Source of the DNA: Ruegeria sp. Ofav3-42
GTDB lineage: Bacteria; Pseudomonadota; Alphaproteobacteria; Rhodobacterales; Rhodobacteraceae
DNA: 64,000 nt
Reading direction: 5' to 3'
Assembly: GCF_022347725.1 (NCBI RefSeq)
Contig: NZ_JAKRGB010000014.1
Coordinates: 62,001 to 126,000 of the forward strand
This document shows, piece after piece, positions 1,912 through 62,403 of the stretch. The position numbers and the translations under genes are program-made. Position 1 is the first letter of the stretch; each line of letters starts with the position of its first letter. Below the pieces are notes generated by a model that saw nothing but the letters and a program-made list of their open reading frames with translations, searched no databases and was not told the origin of the DNA.

Positions 1912-2991
1912 ATGTCGAACCAGCAGTTTGACGCGTTGATTCAGGAAACGCAGCAAAAAGTGCGCGAAAGCCAGTCGCAGATTGAAGGTTTGACCTCGCG
2001 GATCGAGGCCGCGCGCGCCAAGATTGGCACGAATGAGGCGGATATCGACATCGAAAACGCAACGCTTGAGGATGTGCACGCCCATACCGAGGCGATGAAC
2101 GCGAACATCGCCGAGTTGATCATGGGTCTGGACGACGTCACCAACGCGTTTTCCAAGGATTTCGACGAAATGCGCTCGAAAACCGGGTGGGAGTCGTTTG
2201 TGGGCATCTTCGCCAAGGCTAAATCCGAGTCGATGCGGCAGGAGCGGATGCGCACCGCCAATATCGACGACAAGCTGCAGGACCTGATTGCCAAGTCGGA
2301 TGTGATCGTGAAGCTGCTGGAAGGCCAGCTGTCGGTGCTGGAAGAGCAGCGCGTGAAGGTCGAGGAGAACCTGACCGGCACGCTGGACGACCGCGAGGCC
2401 ACCGTGGCCGAGTTGGAGGCGCTGCGCGCCGAGATTCAGGGTATGGACCCGACGATCATCACGCTGGAAAACAAGATCAGCGTCGAACAGGACGCCGCCG
2501 CGCGGACCCAGTTGGAGACGGAACTGGCCGAGCTGAATAAGCAATACAACGCCAAGGTTCAGGAAGAGCAGGTCAAACTGGCCAAGTCCCAGACGCTGGA
2601 GCGCTATATCGAAAAAGGCAAAACCTGGGTCGATTCACTGCAGAACCAGGCGGCGACGCAGATGGTGCTGATCAACAAGCTGCAGACAGATACGCAGCAG
2701 CGCGTGGTGCTGTATGACGCCCTGACCAAATCGCTGAAAACCGCGCAGCAGCAGGACGTGGCCCACCGCATCAACGAGATCGGTGTGCAGACCGACCAAG
2801 AGGCGCAGACGGCGATGGCCGCCATCGGCACCGCGACCAACCAGAAAATGGCCGACATGCTTGAGGCGCATGAGGACCACATGGTCTTTGCCCGCGACGT
2901 GCTGGAGAAAAAGGCCAAGGCGGATGAACGCTTTGCCCGGCGGTTTGCCTCGATTGTCGAGAAGCATGATAAGAATTTGTATGGGGGGTGA
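1912..2991 (+). CDS. Long coiled-coil protein, first gene of the AAA+ cluster
   Basis: 359 aa, almost entirely charged and helical with heptad-like stretches. There is no signal peptide and no membrane segment, so it is probably cytosolic. It starts at an ATG preceded by GGGATAGGACAG. The overall build, a soluble helical rod of about 360 aa, loosely resembles TelA/toxic-anion-resistance proteins (a late LERYIEKG-type segment near residue 230), but I cannot establish homology by eye. It heads an eight-gene same-strand run that includes an AAA+ ATPase (4524–6458), which suggests a scaffold or partner role in that machine. Function is not known. Confidence 0.75.
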   Translation: MSNQQFDALIQETQQKVRESQSQIEGLTSRIEAARAKIGTNEADIDIENATLEDVHAHTEAMNANIAELIMGLDDVTNAFSKDFDEMRSKTGWESFVGIFAKAKSESMRQERMRTANIDDKLQDLIAKSDVIVKLLEGQLSVLEEQRVKVEENLTGTLDDREATVAELEALRAEIQGMDPTIITLENKISVEQDAAARTQLETELAELNKQYNAKVQEEQVKLAKSQTLERYIEKGKTWVDSLQNQAATQMVLINKLQTDTQQRVVLYDALTKSLKTAQQQDVAHRINEIGVQTDQEAQTAMAAIGTATNQKMADMLEAHEDHMVFARDVLEKKAKADERFARRFASIVEKHDKNLYGG

Positions 2992-3012
2992 GGTAGAGGG
3001 TCGGAAGCCGAT

Positions 3013-3390
3013 ATGAAAACGACTACTCTATTGCTCGCAACGGTCTTGTCACTGACCGGACTAACCTGCTTGATTATTGGTTTCGCGACTTACCAATCTG
3101 CGGGAACAGTCAATTGGCAGCTCATTCAGATCGTATCTGCCATCGGGCTAGCAATGCCAATTTTAGCATGGCTTTGGGTTTGGATGTTCAATGTGTTCTT
3201 GCCATTGTTTCTGTGGGTTTTCTGGAAGTATCTAAGTCTGTTTGAGTGGATACTAGGGATCAAACTCGGAACTTGGTTCGGCAAACAAATCCTTGGCGAT
3301 CCTATGGCTAAGCACAGCGAAAGAGGGAAATGGCCTTTTTTGCATCGTGAAGTAGCGCAAGCTTTGGAACGCGAAAGAGCTTATGACTGA
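3013..3390 (+). CDS. Small AT-rich membrane protein of unknown function
   Basis: 125 aa. A hydrophobic N-terminal segment (about residues 5–27) is followed by a second (40–58) and a third aromatic-rich segment (60–80); the C-terminal 45 residues are charged and probably cytosolic. Base composition is visibly lower in GC than the genes on either side, and codon choice differs (TTA, ATT, AGT common). The gene sits exactly between the coiled-coil gene and the 372-aa gene and overlaps the latter by 8 nt. It looks like a later insertion into a conserved GC-rich operon. I recognise no family. Confidence 0.65.
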   Translation: MKTTTLLLATVLSLTGLTCLIIGFATYQSAGTVNWQLIQIVSAIGLAMPILAWLWVWMFNVFLPLFLWVFWKYLSLFEWILGIKLGTWFGKQILGDPMAKHSERGKWPFLHREVAQALERERAYD

Positions 3391-4501
3391 CCCCACCCAA
3401 GACCATGTCGGCCTGACCGACACTTTCGCCTCGCGCCGGTATTTCCGCAAATTCGAGGTGATCACCGTCCACCTCCTGCGCGTAGCCGCAACGATGGAGG
3501 CCGAAGGCGCGATCTCAAAACAAGAGGTGCGGATCGTGTCGCGTTACCTCTCGGGGCTGCTCTACACCTTCCGCGCGCTGTCCATGAAATACCTGCTGGT
3601 CGGGCGCGATACGGGGCGGTTCTTTGGCAGCCTCGCCATGGACAAGCGCGACAGCGGGTTTCCGGTGGCGGCCGAGTTGCTGACCATGGCCAATGACGCG
3701 CAGCAGGCGCAGGTGCATCTGGCGAACATGCCCTCCGAGGACGACCTGAAAACCGATATGGTGCGTACGATCATTGGTGATCAGGAAATCCCCACCAAGC
3801 TGCAGTTCGCACTGTCACAAAGGCTCTATTACGAGGAATTGCTGAAAGGCCAACTGTTCTGGGCCCGCAATGATCCCGAATGCCACTGGATCGGGAATGA
3901 GGGCGAGCGGCGCAAGTTCATGATCCACTGGGCAGTCTATGACAGCCAGATCAACCTGCCGGTCATCTACCTGATGCAGCTTGAGGACAGCGGCAAGACA
4001 GCCCTGCCCAAAGACCAGCGCCGCTGGCCCGAGGTGCAGGCGCATCTGATGGCGCAGTCTCTGGGCGGGCTGAAACTGGTGACGATTGCCAAGGGCTTCG
4101 ATCAGGATTTTGACGATCTGCACCCCAAACACCTGCGCCGTATCCATGTGGGGCCGATGTATTCCTCGGCCTATACCGAACAGTCCGGCCCCCTGCGGCA
4201 GGTGCTGGAGGACGCGCAAGCGCCCGAAGGTCAGGACTGGGCCCTGGCCTGGACCACCGAAGAGCTGGAAAGCGAAGAAGTTATCGAAGAGCGCGCCGGG
4301 TGGTTTTCTACCGTTGAACGCGAGGTCTTCGCGCTCGACCCGTTCGGCGGGCAGGGGGCCGAAACCGGGGCCACGCGCACCCAACGGTCTATCATCCTGC
4401 CCCAGCGCCCGTTTCAGGTGCTGGCCGAGCGCAACCCGCCAGGTTTTGCCGATGTACGCAAGTTCGTCGTCAGCAAGACCGGACAGGTGTTGAGATATTG
4501 A
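3383..4501 (+). CDS. Conserved hypothetical protein of the AAA+ cluster
   Basis: 372 aa, soluble, with no signal peptide or membrane segment. The N-terminal third is helical and rich in Arg and Leu. A middle stretch is rich in Trp, His and Tyr (around residues 150–200). The C-terminus has an acidic patch with repeated Glu (about 290–305). The start ATG lies inside the end of the preceding gene, and the AAA+ ATPase begins 22 nt downstream, so translation of the three is probably linked. GC-rich codon use matches the ATPase and the 445-aa protein, marking it as a core member of the cluster. I do not recognise a characterised family. Confidence 0.75.
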   Translation: MTDPTQDHVGLTDTFASRRYFRKFEVITVHLLRVAATMEAEGAISKQEVRIVSRYLSGLLYTFRALSMKYLLVGRDTGRFFGSLAMDKRDSGFPVAAELLTMANDAQQAQVHLANMPSEDDLKTDMVRTIIGDQEIPTKLQFALSQRLYYEELLKGQLFWARNDPECHWIGNEGERRKFMIHWAVYDSQINLPVIYLMQLEDSGKTALPKDQRRWPEVQAHLMAQSLGGLKLVTIAKGFDQDFDDLHPKHLRRIHVGPMYSSAYTEQSGPLRQVLEDAQAPEGQDWALAWTTEELESEEVIEERAGWFSTVEREVFALDPFGGQGAETGATRTQRSIILPQRPFQVLAERNPPGFADVRKFVVSKTGQVLRY

Positions 4502-4523
4502 AGACAGCAAAGGCGATTTTGAA

Positions 4524-6458
4524 ATGAGTTTGACGTCAGATCAGATGGAATTGCGCGAAGACGACATTCGCAAGCATTATCCGGCGGCGACCGCCTTGCT
4601 GAACGGGTTCGAACACGCGCCGCGGATTGCCAAGGCGGTTGAGGCCGCCGTTGAACGGTCTCCGGGCGTGTCCACGGGCCGAAGGTTTCGGTCGACAACG
4701 CCGGGGTTGGTGACACGGCGCACGTTACGAGCAGATGGGGTGCATCTGGTCGAACGGATAGAAGCCTCGGATGATGGCGATGCGCTGGTGTCACCGCCGC
4801 AGGCCACCACGCAGCAGGCCATTCGCCGCGCCGTTGCCATCGCTCTGGCCGTGGCCGAGGCCTACGCGGAACAAACCCCGCTGGCTGATCTGAAACGCGC
4901 GAACCTGGCAGGCGACTTGCCCGCCGCCCGCAAGACCGAATTCTCGGAACTGCTGACGGCCGAGGCGCTGATCACGTCGCACACCTTCGGCAATGCGCTG
5001 GCCTATCTGATGTCCTCGCATCTGGGTGAAACCACCGCCGATATTGGTGAGATCGAAGAGGTCCTAACCGACAACGGCCAACTCGCCCTGCACGGCGCGC
5101 TGTGGGAGCTGGATCAGACGCTGGCCAAACACGCGCCCGACGATGCTCATCTGATCGCTGCGACCAGCGCCTATGCCGAACAACTGATGGAAAAGGCCGC
5201 GCTGCGCGCGCAGTCAGCAGGCCATCTGGCCCCGTTCCAGAACGCCGCATGGCACATCGAGGCTGATGATCTGACGATCCGGGGGTTCGAACCGGCCTCC
5301 AAGGCCAAATCCACCACCCTCACCATGACGTTCAAGAAACCGAACGAGGTTGTCGGCAACCATATCGCCAAGTATCAGGCGATGAAGCTGGCCAAGATGG
5401 TCATGGCCTATGACTTCGACCGCCGCCTGAACCCGTTTGCCGAACTCGGCGGGTTCATCTTTACCTTTATGGGGGATGGCAAACCGGGCACCGGCAAGAC
5501 CACCCTGATCCAGATGATGGCCGGGCTGATCAACGACTATTGCCAGAACGCGGGCTATCCGTTCCGCTATCAGAACCTGAGCACCGACAATATTGACAGC
5601 TATCAGGGCAAATCCGGCCAGAACGCCAAAGCCTTTATCAACGCGATCATCGACCCCTCGGTCATCGGCTTCGGCACCATCGACGATATCGACCAACTGG
5701 CGGGCAAACGCGGCGACCGGCAGTCGTCGGCTGGACAGCTGGAAATCACTGCCGTTCTGATGGAGAGCTTTGCGGGTGCCAACACCGTCGTCCGCGGCAA
5801 CTGCACGTTTGGCATGTTCTCGAACTACCCCGAGAATGTGGACGACGCCCTGCGCCAGCGGGCGGGCGCGCGGTTCCTGGTGGACGGGCCGCAGACGCGC
5901 GAGGATTACATCGACATCCTGCACCTGCTGATGGGCCGCAACCACGACATCCCGCTGGGCCAGCACGAAGCCTACGCCGCGCAGGAAATCAAAAAGGCCG
6001 TCGCCGCCAGTTTTGAAAGCCACTCCCGCCCGCACGAGGACGCTTTGCTGCAGGTCTATGACCGGGTCTCCGGCGAGATTGGCCAGATGGACACGATCGC
6101 CAAACTGGGCACCTACCTCAAGGCGATCCAGCAGGCGGATGAGCGGTTCACCGGCCGCGCGATCAAGAACATCACCGACGCGGTCAAGGTCCGCGCGATG
6201 GATTTCGAACTGCCCGACGAGTGGATGGAAAACCCCGACCTGTTCCTGTTCCGCGACTACGATACAAAGAAAGCGATGATCGAAGACCTGCGCCAGCCGA
6301 TCACGGTCGAGATGGTGATGCAAGAGATCAATCGCTACGCCGACAGCGAGTTCCGCTATGCCGACAAGAGCGACGAGGTCGCCATCGAGAACGCGGTGCG
6401 TGAGATGGGCCGGATGGAAGAGGCCAAGCGGCGGTATCTGGAGGGGAAGAATGCGTAA
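4524..6458 (+). CDS. AAA+ ATPase, core of an uncharacterised cluster
   Basis: 644 aa. Residues 1 to about 260 are a helical N-terminal region I cannot assign. The AAA+ module follows: Walker A GKPGTGKT at 319–326, Walker B with IDDID at 386–390, a sensor-1-like Asn at 434 (FSNYPEN), and arginine-finger candidates R444/R446 in RQRAGAR. The last 190 residues are helical and Glu/Arg-rich, like an AAA+ lid plus extension. Such proteins use ATP to remodel a protein partner, usually as a hexamer. Neighbours are membrane and coiled-coil proteins, so the substrate may be an envelope-associated complex (inference). No protease, nuclease or VWA domain is visible. Confidence 0.8.
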   Translation: MSLTSDQMELREDDIRKHYPAATALLNGFEHAPRIAKAVEAAVERSPGVSTGRRFRSTTPGLVTRRTLRADGVHLVERIEASDDGDALVSPPQATTQQAIRRAVAIALAVAEAYAEQTPLADLKRANLAGDLPAARKTEFSELLTAEALITSHTFGNALAYLMSSHLGETTADIGEIEEVLTDNGQLALHGALWELDQTLAKHAPDDAHLIAATSAYAEQLMEKAALRAQSAGHLAPFQNAAWHIEADDLTIRGFEPASKAKSTTLTMTFKKPNEVVGNHIAKYQAMKLAKMVMAYDFDRRLNPFAELGGFIFTFMGDGKPGTGKTTLIQMMAGLINDYCQNAGYPFRYQNLSTDNIDSYQGKSGQNAKAFINAIIDPSVIGFGTIDDIDQLAGKRGDRQSSAGQLEITAVLMESFAGANTVVRGNCTFGMFSNYPENVDDALRQRAGARFLVDGPQTREDYIDILHLLMGRNHDIPLGQHEAYAAQEIKKAVAASFESHSRPHEDALLQVYDRVSGEIGQMDTIAKLGTYLKAIQQADERFTGRAIKNITDAVKVRAMDFELPDEWMENPDLFLFRDYDTKKAMIEDLRQPITVEMVMQEINRYADSEFRYADKSDEVAIENAVREMGRMEEAKRRYLEGKNA

Positions 6459-7332
6459 CGCAATAGCCGCCATTATTTCAGTGCTTTGTTTGCCCAGACC
6501 GTTCAAAAAATGGCCTCTGGAAACGAGATTCAAGTATTCTCAAAGACTATGGAGAAACCTCGATCCGACCGTTAGGTTTGCGATCTGGGTAACCGTCAGC
6601 TTTCTTGTTTTAATCTTTCTCTTTTCGTTCGCACCGGGTTGCGCTCAAGAAGCGACCTGTACCGGATCGAAATACACATATTTCTGGTCAGCTCGACCCA
6701 ACGAAATTGGTGACACTTTGGCGGGTATTTCTGGGTCAATTGCCTTTTTTTGGTTGATTGTGACAGTAGTACTTCAAGGAAAACAACTCTCTGCTCAACG
6801 AAAGGAGCTTGTGCTAAACAGAATCGAAATGAGGGAGCAAAGTAAAGCTACTCAGGAAATGGCTGAATCGCAAAGCGCCCAAGTTCGCCTCTTAGTAGGT
6901 CAACAAGAAGTCGTAGATCAGGCAGCAGTACTACTAGGTGTGAAGCGTCGTCTTGAGCATTTAAACACTGAGACAATTACTTACTTCGCTCACCCGAAGG
7001 ATTCTCCCCATGCCCATATAGAAGGCAGAATTGTTCCAAGGGGAAAGTATGAAACAGAACTAGAGTTTTTCTTAGACCTAAATGAGTGCCTCGAGGAAAC
7101 GATTGCGCGTCTAAATGAAGATCGCTTGGATCTAGAACTCAGCATCCGAAAAGGTTTTTTCAACCAAAAGGCCGATTTGCAAGAAATACGCTATTACTTG
7201 GATGGCCTGCCGGAAAACTACGACAGGTTAACGCTGGCTGGGAAAATGTACCTGAGTGATTTGAAAATATACCGCTCAACGGCGCTATTAAGGGAGATAA
7301 CAACGCGGGTTTACGAGGAAAGTAACGGTTAG
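6451..7332 (+). CDS. AT-rich membrane protein with coiled-coil and soluble C-terminal region
   Basis: 293 aa from the ATG at 6451, which overlaps the end of the ATPase gene by 8 nt; an in-frame upstream start would lie deep inside the ATPase gene and is unlikely. A first transmembrane helix spans about residues 43–62 and a second about 95–110, followed directly by a Gln/Glu-rich coiled coil (about 112–160) and a soluble helical region. The arrangement GDTLAG, TM helix, coil is common in poorly described membrane proteins of phages and genomic islands. GC content is clearly lower than in the flanking genes, so it may be foreign cargo inserted in the operon. Confidence 0.7.
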   Translation: MRNAIAAIISVLCLPRPFKKWPLETRFKYSQRLWRNLDPTVRFAIWVTVSFLVLIFLFSFAPGCAQEATCTGSKYTYFWSARPNEIGDTLAGISGSIAFFWLIVTVVLQGKQLSAQRKELVLNRIEMREQSKATQEMAESQSAQVRLLVGQQEVVDQAAVLLGVKRRLEHLNTETITYFAHPKDSPHAHIEGRIVPRGKYETELEFFLDLNECLEETIARLNEDRLDLELSIRKGFFNQKADLQEIRYYLDGLPENYDRLTLAGKMYLSDLKIYRSTALLREITTRVYEESNG

Positions 7333-7334
7333 TC

Positions 7335-8672
7335 ATGATCCGCCTCATCGAAAAAGGCCTGATGTTCGGCAACCTCGTCCACATTTCCAGCCCGGCTCTG
7401 GTCGAGCGGTATAACCGCGCGCTGCAGCATCTGGCGGGCAAGACCACGGCGCTGACGGATTTCCATGTCGATATCTCGGGCTATTCGCCGGAGGTGGGGA
7501 TTGAGCTGGAGGACGAACTTTATCTCAACCCCAACGGGGTCAACCGGCAGTTCATCCTGCTGACGACCGAGCAGAAACGCGCGCCTTTGCTGAACGTTAA
7601 GTTCTCGACCTCGCGCGATATCCTGCGCGAATTCATCGAGATGAACGAGGCGCAGCTGTTTGCCCTGACCGCCACTGATGCGGTGGCCGGAGAGCTGGTG
7701 AACTCGGTCATCAAACTCACCACGCCGCGCGACCTGCTGAACCTACGCAAGATCGAGATTGAGGCCGACACCGCGGGCGGCACCCTGCGCAAAGCTCAGC
7801 AACTTGCGAGCATGGTCGAACAGTTCAAAACCAAAGAGGACGCCTGGTTCGACGATGTGCTGATCGCCAGGATGATCGAAACAGCCAAAGAAACCGGCGA
7901 CGTCACGCGCAACCCCGTCCGTCTTCGCCACACCGCATTCGAGCAGCGCAATTTCTGGACGGCGCATTTCGGCGGGCTGTACCTGTTCCCGGATCTGGAT
8001 CACCCGGCAGCGATCTGTATGGGCGAAAAGCCAGGCGACATGCCCATCAAATACGTTTTTGATCCTTCCCAGCGGAACCAGATCGCAAAGTTCCTTGGGC
8101 TTAACGATTTGGTCGAAACGATCATCGAGGCGCGCGGTGTCAACTCCGCCGCGATTCTGCAACAGAAGATGGACTTCCTGACCATCGACGCTGCGGCGGA
8201 TGCGGGCGTGGATCTGACAGGGCAGGATCGTGGCGACATGCGGCGGTTGGCCCGCAATCACGCGGATCGCCTGCCCGAAGCCTATCACGGGCTGGCGCAA
8301 CTGTTGCGCTGGGCGAAGGATGGTGGCCCGTGGCCGCGCATCACCTCGGATCACCCGGCCTATTTCTATACCCTGCGGGCAACCAACACGCCGAACCGCG
8401 ATCTGGTGAACATGTTGCTGGCCGAACTGGCGCCGCTGGACCCGCGTCAGATGTTCATTTGCCACAAGGAGCTGTTCTACCGCACCTATGCGACCTGGCC
8501 GGAAACCAAAAAAGCCTATGTTGCCGAGTTCCTTGCGCGAGAGTATCAGGTGGACAAGGCAGGCGCTCGGGCCGCGCTGTTCGGGCATGAGCCCGACATG
8601 AGCGGCAATGACCGGGTCAGCGATGAGGTTATCGCGCGCGTTGGTCCCTGGGGCGCAGTAGGGAGAAGTTAA
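7335..8672 (+). CDS. Conserved hypothetical protein, possibly DUF6638 family
   Basis: 445 aa, soluble and acidic, with no signal peptide. The N-terminus (MFGNLVHISSP, then a segment on polynomial-like strands) and the whole length recall a Rhodobacterales family I believe is catalogued as DUF6638; the name is from memory and unverified. It starts 2 nt after the preceding AT-rich gene, but its GC-rich codon use matches the ATPase and the 372-aa protein. It probably followed the ATPase directly before the 6451–7332 gene arrived. The next gene starts at the base after its stop codon, so co-translation is likely. Function is unknown. Confidence 0.75.
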   Translation: MIRLIEKGLMFGNLVHISSPALVERYNRALQHLAGKTTALTDFHVDISGYSPEVGIELEDELYLNPNGVNRQFILLTTEQKRAPLLNVKFSTSRDILREFIEMNEAQLFALTATDAVAGELVNSVIKLTTPRDLLNLRKIEIEADTAGGTLRKAQQLASMVEQFKTKEDAWFDDVLIARMIETAKETGDVTRNPVRLRHTAFEQRNFWTAHFGGLYLFPDLDHPAAICMGEKPGDMPIKYVFDPSQRNQIAKFLGLNDLVETIIEARGVNSAAILQQKMDFLTIDAAADAGVDLTGQDRGDMRRLARNHADRLPEAYHGLAQLLRWAKDGGPWPRITSDHPAYFYTLRATNTPNRDLVNMLLAELAPLDPRQMFICHKELFYRTYATWPETKKAYVAEFLAREYQVDKAGARAALFGHEPDMSGNDRVSDEVIARVGPWGAVGRS

Positions 8673-8939
8673 ATGTTGGTCGCACTCCGCTTTCTGATCC
8701 CGTTGCTGATCGTGCTGACGGTTTTGTATGTGGGCGTATCAATCTATTCCCGCTGGGTACGGCGCGGTAAACTGATCGCACATTGGGAGAAAAAGGGCAT
8801 GACCGGCGACCGGGACGCCTTTGTTCAGCGCGGGCTGAAAAAATACGATGGATCGTTTCGCCGCAAACTGATCCTGGGGATTTATGTCGTGCCGCTGGGC
8901 CTGATTGCGATCCTGATTTATGTTTCGAATTTCATGTGA
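8673..8939 (+). CDS. Small two-helix membrane protein
   Basis: 88 aa. The first hydrophobic helix is at about residues 5–25 and the second at about 68–85, with a basic, Arg/Lys-rich loop of about 40 residues between them that is probably cytosolic. The start codon directly abuts the stop of the 445-aa gene and the next gene follows after 11 nt. GC-rich codon use fits the core of the cluster, unlike the two AT-rich membrane genes. No characterised family is recognised. Confidence 0.7.
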   Translation: MLVALRFLIPLLIVLTVLYVGVSIYSRWVRRGKLIAHWEKKGMTGDRDAFVQRGLKKYDGSFRRKLILGIYVVPLGLIAILIYVSNFM

Positions 8940-8950
8940 GGGTTGCGCTG

Positions 8951-9595
8951 ATGCGTTACGTCAAATGGGCCATCATCATCTTGTTCTGGGGCACGATAGC
9001 GGCGGTGTTGAACTACACCTTGCCGCAACATGACGTGGTCCGGATCTCGGACACTTATGAAAAACGGATCGACCCCGGTGAGAACAGCATCTTCTGGTCG
9101 GTGCATGATGTCGGCAGCGATCCGACCACGCCAAACCGCGATGTGTTCTTCATTCAGACCCGCAAGACCAACGGCAAGGTCATGGTCTACCGGAACGAGG
9201 ATACAGGTTGGGGCTGGCCGCCCTATTTCAAGCTGAACTCCTCAAACCTACAGGCCGAAGCGGCGGATCTGAAGTCCACGACAGAGGCGCCCCGCTGGGT
9301 GGTTGTACGCCACTACGGCTGGCGCAGCGAGTTCCTGTCGATCTTCCCGAATGCTGTGAAAATCTGGCAGGTGGACAGCCCGGATGTCCGTATCATCCCG
9401 TGGTTTAACATCATTTTCCTGACTATTTTCTTCGCTCTGGTTTGGGCCATTTGGGTGCGTTGGCGCCGATTTCGCGAGGCGCGTATCGATCCAATGATGG
9501 AGAATGTGGAGGACGGCCTCTATGCCGCCGGCGACGCCATCGAAGAGCAGGGTGGAAAGTTCAGGAAATGGCTGAACAGCTGGAAGTCAAAGTGA
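8951..9595 (+). CDS. DUF1523-family membrane protein
   Basis: 214 aa from the ATG at 8951; a longer upstream reading would run through the preceding gene in another frame. There is an N-terminal membrane helix (residues 5–24), a periplasmic domain containing the conserved stretch YRNEDTGWGWPPYFK, a second helix near 150–170, and a charged cytosolic tail. These features and the order match DUF1523, a family common in Rhodobacterales with no known function. It closes the eight-gene run that starts at 1912 and faces the flagellar flgI gene, whose stop is 47 nt away. A role as membrane anchor or sensor of the AAA+ cluster is inferred from position only. Confidence 0.8.
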   Translation: MRYVKWAIIILFWGTIAAVLNYTLPQHDVVRISDTYEKRIDPGENSIFWSVHDVGSDPTTPNRDVFFIQTRKTNGKVMVYRNEDTGWGWPPYFKLNSSNLQAEAADLKSTTEAPRWVVVRHYGWRSEFLSIFPNAVKIWQVDSPDVRIIPWFNIIFLTIFFALVWAIWVRWRRFREARIDPMMENVEDGLYAAGDAIEEQGGKFRKWLNSWKSK

Positions 9596-61626: not shown

Positions 61627-62403
61627 ATGGCTTTTGAGACGATCATCGTCGAAATCGAAGACCACGTCGCACTTATCAAGCTCGACAGACCCGATGCGCT
61701 GAATGCGCTGAACTCACAGCTGGCTCAGGAACTGTGCACCGCATTAGAAGATGCGGATAGCAATGACAAAGTGCGCTGCATTGTCATTACCGGTTCGGAC
61801 AAGGCGTTCGCGGCAGGTGCGGACATCAAGGAAATGTCCGAAATGAGCTTTGTGGATGTCTACAGCTCGAACCTCTTTGGCTCTCTGAACGACCGTGTCT
61901 GCGCGATCCGGAAGCCGATCATCGCGGCTGTTGCAGGCTATGCGCTGGGCGGTGGCTGCGAATTGGCCATGCTGTGCGACTTCATCATTGCTGCGGATAC
62001 CGCCAAGTTCGGCCAGCCCGAGATCAACCTTGGGGTTATTGCGGGGCTGGGCGGCAGCCAGCGTTTGACGCGGTTTGTCGGAAAGTCCAAATCCATGGAC
62101 ATGAACCTGACCGGTCGCTTCATGGATGCCGAAGAGGCGGAGCGCGCAGGGCTGGTCAGCCGGGTCGTTCCCGCCAAGAAGCTGATGGATGAGGCGATGG
62201 GTGCGGCCCAGAAGATCGCCGAGAAATCCCAGTTGACTGCCATGGCGGCGAAAGAGGCGGTGAACCGCAGTTATGAACTGCCGCTGAGCGAAGGTATGTT
62301 GTTCGAGCGCCGCGTCTTCCACTCGATGTTCGCGACCGAGGACCAGAAGGAAGGCATGGCCGCGTTCCTGGAAAAACGCGCGGCGCAATTTCGCGACAAG
62401 TAA
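61627..62403 (+). CDS. Enoyl-CoA hydratase
   Basis: 258 aa, crotonase family. AGADIKEM near residue 66 gives one oxyanion-hole element, and Glu residues near 114 and 134 ([31 protein letters not shown]) are the catalytic pair. It hydrates trans-2-enoyl-CoA in beta-oxidation. It is a single gene with a terminator after it; its location before rpsT and dnaA is common in roseobacters. Confidence 0.94.

Follow-up and report, generated by a model that had tools for sequence, protein, structure and literature searches.

A conserved AAA+ ATPase operon of Ruegeria sp. Ofav3-42 with two hypervariable cassette slots, a possible conflict system with exchangeable cargo

The genome of Ruegeria sp. Ofav3-42 contains an operon for an AAA+ ATPase in which two positions are hypervariable cassette slots, while the genes around them are conserved across families and classes. 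The operon lies in the 64,000 nucleotides (nt) analysed here (the window; positions 62,001 to 126,000 of contig NZ_JAKRGB010000014.1), where eight co-directional open reading frames (ORFs), here named A to H, occupy 1912-9595 of the + strand, all present as first described. The second and fifth genes, B and E, are interchangeable cargo in the two slots. The core operon A-C-D-F, with the membrane partners G and H in Rhodobacteraceae, carries both slots, and here it is proposed, tentatively and with slightly less than even confidence, that it controls exchangeable effectors in a conflict or anti-phage system. Literature phrase searches for such a system returned no description.

The operon begins with A, a coiled-coil core subunit of 359 amino acids (aa; 1912..2991, on the + strand like all features below), followed by slot 1, the A-C interval (2992..3382), which in this strain holds B (125 aa, 3013..3390). 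The core continues with the subunit C (372 aa, 3383..4501), with predicted helices at residues 14-154 and a beta-rich part at 166-371, and with the AAA+ ATPase D (644 aa, 4524..6458). Slot 2, the D-F interval (6459..7334), has E as its cargo (293 aa, 6451..7332), most likely starting at the ATG at 6451, which replaces an earlier start at 6358 and overlaps the stop codon of D (6456-6458). Downstream are the core subunit F (445 aa, 7335..8672), the membrane protein G of Rhodobacteraceae loci (88 aa, 8673..8939) and the membrane protein H (214 aa, 8951..9595), the start of which was placed at ATG 8951 instead of TTG 8783. The spacings are 21 nt for A-B, an overlap of 8 nt for B-C, 22 nt for C-D, an overlap of 8 nt for D-E, and 2, 0 and 11 nt for E-F, F-G and G-H, respectively, and the corrected coordinates bear out the tight packing of the original prediction (gaps of 22 nt or less). 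By a plain hydropathy count, with no trained predictor, B, E, G and H have two hydrophobic segments each and A, C, D and F have zero; the membrane parts of the locus are G, H and much of the cargo, and the machine at the envelope suggested in the original prediction is neither confirmed nor refuted.

Turnover of the slots was observed in the Ruegeria group, which includes 19 loci with D proteins 95-99% identical to that of the window in aa and with 87-91% nt identity of D. The A, C, D, F, G and H genes of the window are alignable in 17.9-18 of 18 loci of this group, while slot 1 is alignable in a mean of 0.1 and slot 2 in a mean of 0.02 of the 18. Every slot is occupied in all 19 loci, with 14 cargo families in slot 1 and 15 in slot 2. 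Among the 171 pairs of loci, 11 have the same slot-1 cargo, 15 the same slot-2 cargo and none both; the two slots therefore vary independently. The borders of the divergence in most of these loci are the stop codon of D and the start codon of F, and the stop codon of A and the start codon of C. Overlaps between the start and stop codons of the cargo and those of the core genes are frequent, and in a few pairs a short stretch at one edge of the slot is common to both loci. The guanine-plus-cytosine (GC) content of the slots is below that of D of the same strain in 84 of 99 cases for slot 2 and in 65 of 77 for slot 1. The locus would thus illustrate how a conserved operon can have a short gene within it replaced, and no recombinase gene was noticed beside it.

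The A-C interval ranges from an overlap to 780 nt and the D-F interval from an overlap to 2,382 nt. Intervals of at least 150 nt were found at D-F in 96 of 110 loci and at A-C in 67 of 112, versus 12 of 114 at C-D and 2 of 100 at F-G. This focus on two junctions argues against an alternative with an ordinary AAA+ machine of the envelope or of stress responses as the core, and with slots that serve only as a permissive landing site, where foreign genes become translationally coupled behind A and D and are unrelated to the work of the core. Such a landing site would account for the slots that are empty in Vibrio and in many Rhodobacteraceae, from which it follows that the core can be maintained without cargo; overall, it is considered rather unlikely.

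The route by which cassettes move is suggested by a gradient at synonymous sites, measured as identity at four-fold degenerate sites (third-position identity was rejected, because amino-acid conservation enters it). Read 5' to 3' in 50-codon windows over the Ruegeria group, this identity rises from 0.52 to 0.80 in A and from about 0.55 to 0.82 in D, and falls from 0.80 to 0.55 in C and from 0.88 to about 0.5 in F. Between the 5' and 3' ends of each gene, the values go from 0.55 to 0.76 in A, from 0.80 to 0.58 in C, from 0.58 to 0.82 in D and from 0.88 to 0.53 in F. The slot-facing end is the higher one in 25 of 28 gene-by-group comparisons, which are not independent of one another, over seven groups with means of 0.62 at the slot-facing end, 0.58 in the middle and 0.49 at the far end; the three exceptions are A in Tateyamaria, A in the Sulfitobacter group and F in Loktanella/Yoonia (where the ends are equal to two decimals). 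For the Ruegeria group, the rank correlation with slot distance over 45 windows of 40 codons is -0.70, and the partial correlation after amino-acid conservation (taken from 58-63 more distant loci) is -0.69, a value that none of 5000 shuffles attained. In C, amino-acid conservation and four-fold-site identity run in opposite ways. The flagellar neighbours are flat, with 0.34-0.40 for FlgI (18 loci), 0.33-0.50 for FlgL (17 loci) and 0.31-0.43 for FlgK (17 loci), and the aldehyde dehydrogenase gene, with 0.47-0.66 (14 loci), has no clear trend. The gradient spans hundreds of codons and is thus not a ribosome-binding or junction effect. The reading proposed here is that homologous recombination in the core genes on either side has probably occurred again and again, which would swap the cassettes and make the flanking sequences more alike.

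The cargo was defined by longest-ORF tiling, and a codon-usage gene caller, which cut the AT-rich cargo short, was dropped. The tiling yielded 126 proteins in 63 clusters for slot 2 and 74 proteins in 55 clusters for slot 1, and 14 and 9 of these clusters, respectively, were removed by eye as wrong-frame or doubtful. The kept cargo, from 115 loci, includes 49 families (108 proteins) in slot 2 and 46 families (65 proteins) in slot 1. Hydrophobic segments are present in 37 of the 49 and 45 of the 46 kept families, a share that the removals can inflate and that is at least 37 of 63 and 45 of 55 with the dropped clusters counted as non-membrane. Slots hold one, sometimes two or three genes, with a single gene in many of them. 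The cargo of slot 1 consists mostly of small membrane proteins, a preference that speaks against a permissive landing site; the mixed cargo, mostly of unknown kind, speaks for one.

A Pfam search of 80 of the 126 slot-2 proteins gave 21 families at an expect value (E) of 0.01 or better. These include nuclease or defence-type domains, namely Mrr_cat (1.7e-32), DUF559 (7.6e-33), PIN_10 (1.1e-15), AbiJ_NTD4 (8.4e-9) and HNH (0.0012), and further models such as Mrr_N, DUF433 and HEPN-type models, as well as weak and probably chance matches. Ten cargo proteins were compared singly with PADLOC, and six had no match. Of the other four, the Mrr protein of locus L116 strongly matched type IV restriction and candidate models (mREase_IV, 1.7e-30; PDC-S02, 5e-33), that of L132 matched HNH-type models, that of L153 a DrmA segment and that of L150, weakly, Csx1/Csm6-type models. 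NCBIfam gave two anti-phage names, Hhe (4.4e-6) and ProA (8.7e-6), with one protein each. For slot 1, the 46 of 74 proteins searched matched nine Pfam families, mostly weakly, the best being DUF4279 (4.3e-11), and PADLOC gave one weak match to a two-transmembrane (2TM) effector.

The slot-1 cargo of this strain, B, is a singleton family, without a homologue in 20 family neighbourhoods or 80 named loci (both sets described below). The E family has 14 members among the slot-2 proteins, and of 59 family genomes searched for it five gave a match, two of them lacking D and matching in part only; from its start at 6451, E has a PNE(I/V)GDTLAG motif and is 19-29% identical to the other 12 aligned members. 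Homologues of high identity that had appeared in several loci were discarded as largely an artefact of the 6358 start, because the ORF beginning there overlaps D out of frame. The longer ORF of E matched phrog_9267 in PHROGs (1e-6), and E of the window was found in three phage records; four cargo proteins searched in plasmids gave 0, 1, 4 and 0 records.

The strain-level polymorphism among close Ruegeria and the membrane and nuclease cargo would also suit a polymorphic competition system, in which each cassette would encode a toxin particular to its strain, acting on membranes or as a nuclease, and the core would export, activate or silence these toxins between kin. No constant delivery gene or signal was noticed at these loci, no paired immunity gene is evident, as the two slots vary independently, and the many single-gene slots also argue against this possibility, which is considered improbable.

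Conservation of the core was examined in 20 neighbourhoods fetched from the 37 family genomes carrying D (37 of 80 genomes of the family). All six genes A, C, D, F, G and H are present, in one order, in 20 of 20 neighbourhoods. Among the 80 named loci, which are the best 80 of 454 confirmed, D is present in 80, C in 79, A in 77, F in 73, H in 73 and G in 72; 70 loci have all six genes, in the same order in 70 of 70. Missing genes correspond to short contigs or contig ends, to L149, without G, and to L119, L120 and L129, where F is elsewhere. In L120/L193, F-G-H are located about 0.48 Mb from D on one contig, 3' of flgI and in the direction of flgI, which indicates a rearrangement that broke the D-F slot. 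The displaced F genes of L120, L129 and L119 are in L193, L195 and L196, respectively, with G and H in L193 and L196; G and H were not found in L195. In L179, C and D are split by an insertion of 5,584 nt (GC 0.69) bearing an ORF of 1,125 aa. The presence of D in 37 of 80 family genomes is patchy, unlike that of a housekeeping gene, and this counts against the ordinary machine with a landing site.

Beyond the family, C is present in 5 of 289 genomes of the class. In the phylum, D is present in 26 of 398 genomes and DUF6638, the family of F, in the identical 26, never one alone and with no more than about 1.1 kb between D and F in any of them; one of these genomes (G407) belongs to another class of the phylum. 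D is also present in 1 of 43 genomes in the order of G289, and Halomonas sp. ALS9 (L181) has all six genes. Ten plasmid records with D come from Sinorhizobium, Shinella, Rhizobium and Vibrio and are large replicons typed as non-mobilizable. Vibrio parahaemolyticus has the order A, C, D and DUF6638, with 28-40% identity to the window proteins, and V. vulnificus has the same layout by annotation only. Sinorhizobium meliloti has A, C, D, an annotated endonuclease, an insertion sequence, F and a DUF2333 gene. The annotation shows no G or H next to the core in S. meliloti or Vibrio, and they were undetected in four loci of family f160 (L078-L081). Because of these A-C-D-F layouts outside Rhodobacteraceae, A-C-D-F is taken as the core common to all loci examined, and G and H as its Rhodobacteraceae partners. 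The original prediction had placed all eight genes in a single machine, with co-occurrence in one order as the check. Co-occurrence in one order holds for the core across families and classes and fails for genes 2 (125 aa) and 5 (293 aa), which are absent or replaced in most relatives, and the eight-gene machine is not supported.

Two sets of neighbouring genes bear on the function of the core. In S. meliloti (L187:13340-14563), the DUF2333 protein is encoded 3 nt after F, at the position of G and H in Rhodobacteraceae. DUF1523 was also found in L061 and L077, and in the latter (L077:3099-4115, G603) a PspA/IM30 gene (2.3e-25) and a YiaAB gene (1.4e-15) are located beyond it on the same strand, with an opposite-strand ORF between them. 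These neighbours are in favour of an ordinary envelope or stress machine with landing-site slots, an explanation that also stays alive because of the ordinary genes flanking the operon, the empty slots in Vibrio and elsewhere and the mass of nameless cargo.

D has a classical AAA domain (PF00004, 1.3e-11, 45.5 bits versus a Pfam cut-off of 21.2). Its Walker A motif, GDGKPGTGKTT at residues 317-327, is invariant at every residue except K320 across 21 aligned sequences, in which the sensor-1 N434 and the arginine candidates R444, R446 and R450 are also invariant. Over the 115 loci, the Walker A pattern was found in 114, the Walker B pattern FGT[IV]DD[IV]D in 115, sensor 1 in 115 and the arginine pattern in 113, which supports the Walker A, Walker B, sensor-1 and arginine-finger candidates named earlier. 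The usual Walker B is IDEID, with glutamate as the catalytic residue; that of D is IDDID (residues 386-390) in all 115 loci, and D thus has an aspartate at the place of the usual catalytic glutamate. Among solved-structure sequences, the nearest to D are an i-AAA protease ATPase domain (4.7e-4) and Fidgetin-like 1 (0.0094). These relatives, as well as the PspA/IM30 gene after the operon in L077, would fit a membrane-remodelling pair in which A polymerises on membranes and a Vps4/FtsH-like D disassembles it, with the cargo as membrane targets or adaptors. At E 1, A has no match to the Pfam models of PspA and TelA, its profile comparison with TelA is insignificant and the nuclease cargo would be left unexplained; such a pair is regarded as very improbable.

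F is a member of DUF6638 (PF20343, 7e-228, 757 bits versus a cut-off of 27, profile positions 1-439 of 439) and H of DUF1523 (PF07509, 1.9e-72, 242.8 bits versus 23), as had been guessed for the 445-aa protein and called for the last gene; both families are names without a function, and no paper naming DUF6638 was found in a literature search. A, B, C, E and G have no Pfam family above cut-off, and none of the eight proteins has an NCBIfam model above cut-off. Beyond D, F and H, no function-naming match was obtained in Pfam, NCBIfam, PADLOC or PHROGs, in agreement with the original view that no member has a known function. C and F gave nothing significant in profile searches against solved-structure sequences; the structure model of C has a mean predicted local distance difference test score (pLDDT) of 88.8. 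A kinship of residues 174-336 of C with tunnelling-fold (T-fold) proteins was considered and is neither supported nor rejected. A is 72-96% identical in 20 of 20 relatives, 43% in S. meliloti and 40% in Vibrio; C is 45-97% identical, 31% in S. meliloti and 29% in Vibrio, and D is 39.8% identical over 97% in Vibrio.

The ratio of non-synonymous to synonymous substitution rates (dN/dS) versus the window is 0.034 for A, 0.033 for C, 0.036 for D and 0.080 for F in the Ruegeria group (18 loci each), and 0.23 for G (17 loci) and 0.11 for H (13 loci). Purifying selection on the core is strong, and the cargo is replaced even among close strains; values of about 0.03 are also those of a housekeeping function, as an ordinary AAA+ machine would have. 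G and H (8673-9595) diverge far faster than A, C and D, with median dS of 1.3 and 2.0 versus about 0.5.

The core proteins A, C, D, F, G and H matched no named system in PADLOC-DB 2.0.0. The best matches are of coiled-coil or generic AAA type, NsnC at 0.0039, LmuB at 0.0047 (A) and TRIP13 at 7.8e-6 and 23.5 bits (D), and G matched AbiZ at 0.025 over 19 residues; the concern that the ATPase might belong to a characterised complex found no support beyond such weak matches of D. Modular anti-phage systems with exchangeable effectors include the cyclic-oligonucleotide-based anti-phage signalling system (CBASS) with TRIP13/HORMA and Lamassu, which, like the locus described here, have a conserved core including an ATPase and variable membrane or nuclease effectors. 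However, apart from the weak TRIP13 and LmuB coiled-coil matches, none of their proteins is present, and none of the eight proteins matched a CD-NTase or HORMA model at E 1; the window operon also differs in having two separate internal slots and a core that persists without cargo. Embedded defence cargo is known from bacteriophage exclusion (BREX) and Hma-type loci, defence-gene hotspots that can be read by 'guilt-by-embedding'. There too, variable defence-type genes are nested at a fixed place between conserved genes, whereas here the cassettes have one to three ORFs, their borders are stop and start codons, and the uncharacterised AAA+ operon around them is itself no known defence system.

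In the favoured reading, the core would be the sensor or remodelling machine of an anti-phage, abortive-infection-like conflict system. D would act with the coiled-coil A, C and F and would control the effectors that the slots provide. Some of these, small and with several hydrophobic segments, would disrupt the membrane, and others, of Mrr, HNH, DUF559, PIN and HEPN/AbiJ types, would cut nucleic acid.

Several observations weigh against this proposal. Most of the cargo has no named domain, 18 of the 21 slot-2 Pfam families were matched by a single protein, some slot-2 domains (thioredoxin, DUF998) are not defence-like, and all three DUF559 proteins come from f160 loci (L078-L080), outside Rhodobacteraceae. 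An E-type domain, as a partial match, occurs among ordinary genes in two genomes without D. Slots are shorter than 150 nt in 45 of 112 loci for slot 1 and 14 of 110 for slot 2, and the Vibrio gaps are 64 and 48 nt. F is away from D in three loci, in one of which (L119, a metagenome-assembled genome) A and C are also not beside D. For the core, a strong PADLOC model match is absent for every protein, the TRIP13 match of D may reflect no more than a general likeness among AAA proteins, viral contigs yielded no relative of D, and the genes flanking the operon in the window (aldehyde dehydrogenase, flagellar) are non-defence genes. As for the recombination route, the gradient is clear in the Ruegeria group and weaker outside it, with the slot-facing end above the gene middle in 17 of the 28 gene-by-group comparisons; amino-acid conservation in A alone tracks the gradient as well as slot distance does (0.92 versus -0.75); and pairwise-identity correlations between gene ends are low everywhere, including the slot-free C-D junction (-0.3 to 0.18), and do not single out the slots.

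A broader and doubtful extension is that of a widespread, undescribed anti-phage platform, in which the four-protein core would sense infection and work with any effector that recombination places in the two slots. Slot 1 would take small membrane proteins and slot 2 membrane proteins or nucleases, and together they would be a natural library of uncharacterised effectors. If the favoured reading is right, one operon would flag dozens of cargo families (the 49 slot-2 and 46 slot-1 families kept from the 115 loci) as candidate effectors, which could be found by reading D-F or A-C intervals, and would provide a function for DUF6638 and a context for DUF1523. Even as a landing site, the two high-turnover operon junctions would be a clean system for studying cassette movement.

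The gene SMc02733, a conjectural member of this operon, is listed among ChvI-bound fragments in one study (PMC3687685).

TelA (PF05816) was considered as a relative of A, given the likeness of a long coiled coil beside hypothetical proteins, and is not supported, given the Pfam result above. In hhalign, the C-terminal half of A versus TelA (10 TelA and 15 A sequences) gave an insignificant probability of 6.6 (E 0.0055), with a near full-length path of low confidence. The co-occurrence of TelA with the core (TelA in 15 of 80 phylum genomes, among them each of the six known core carriers of the draw) was also dropped, and no link is claimed, because TelA is present in 72 of 80 family genomes versus 37 for the core. 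The genome of the window has its own true TelA (5.8e-109, contig C33), and the ORFs after it in the same region (L062:8448-12900) resemble, by eye, proteins of lipoprotein, SPFH and zinc-ribbon types.

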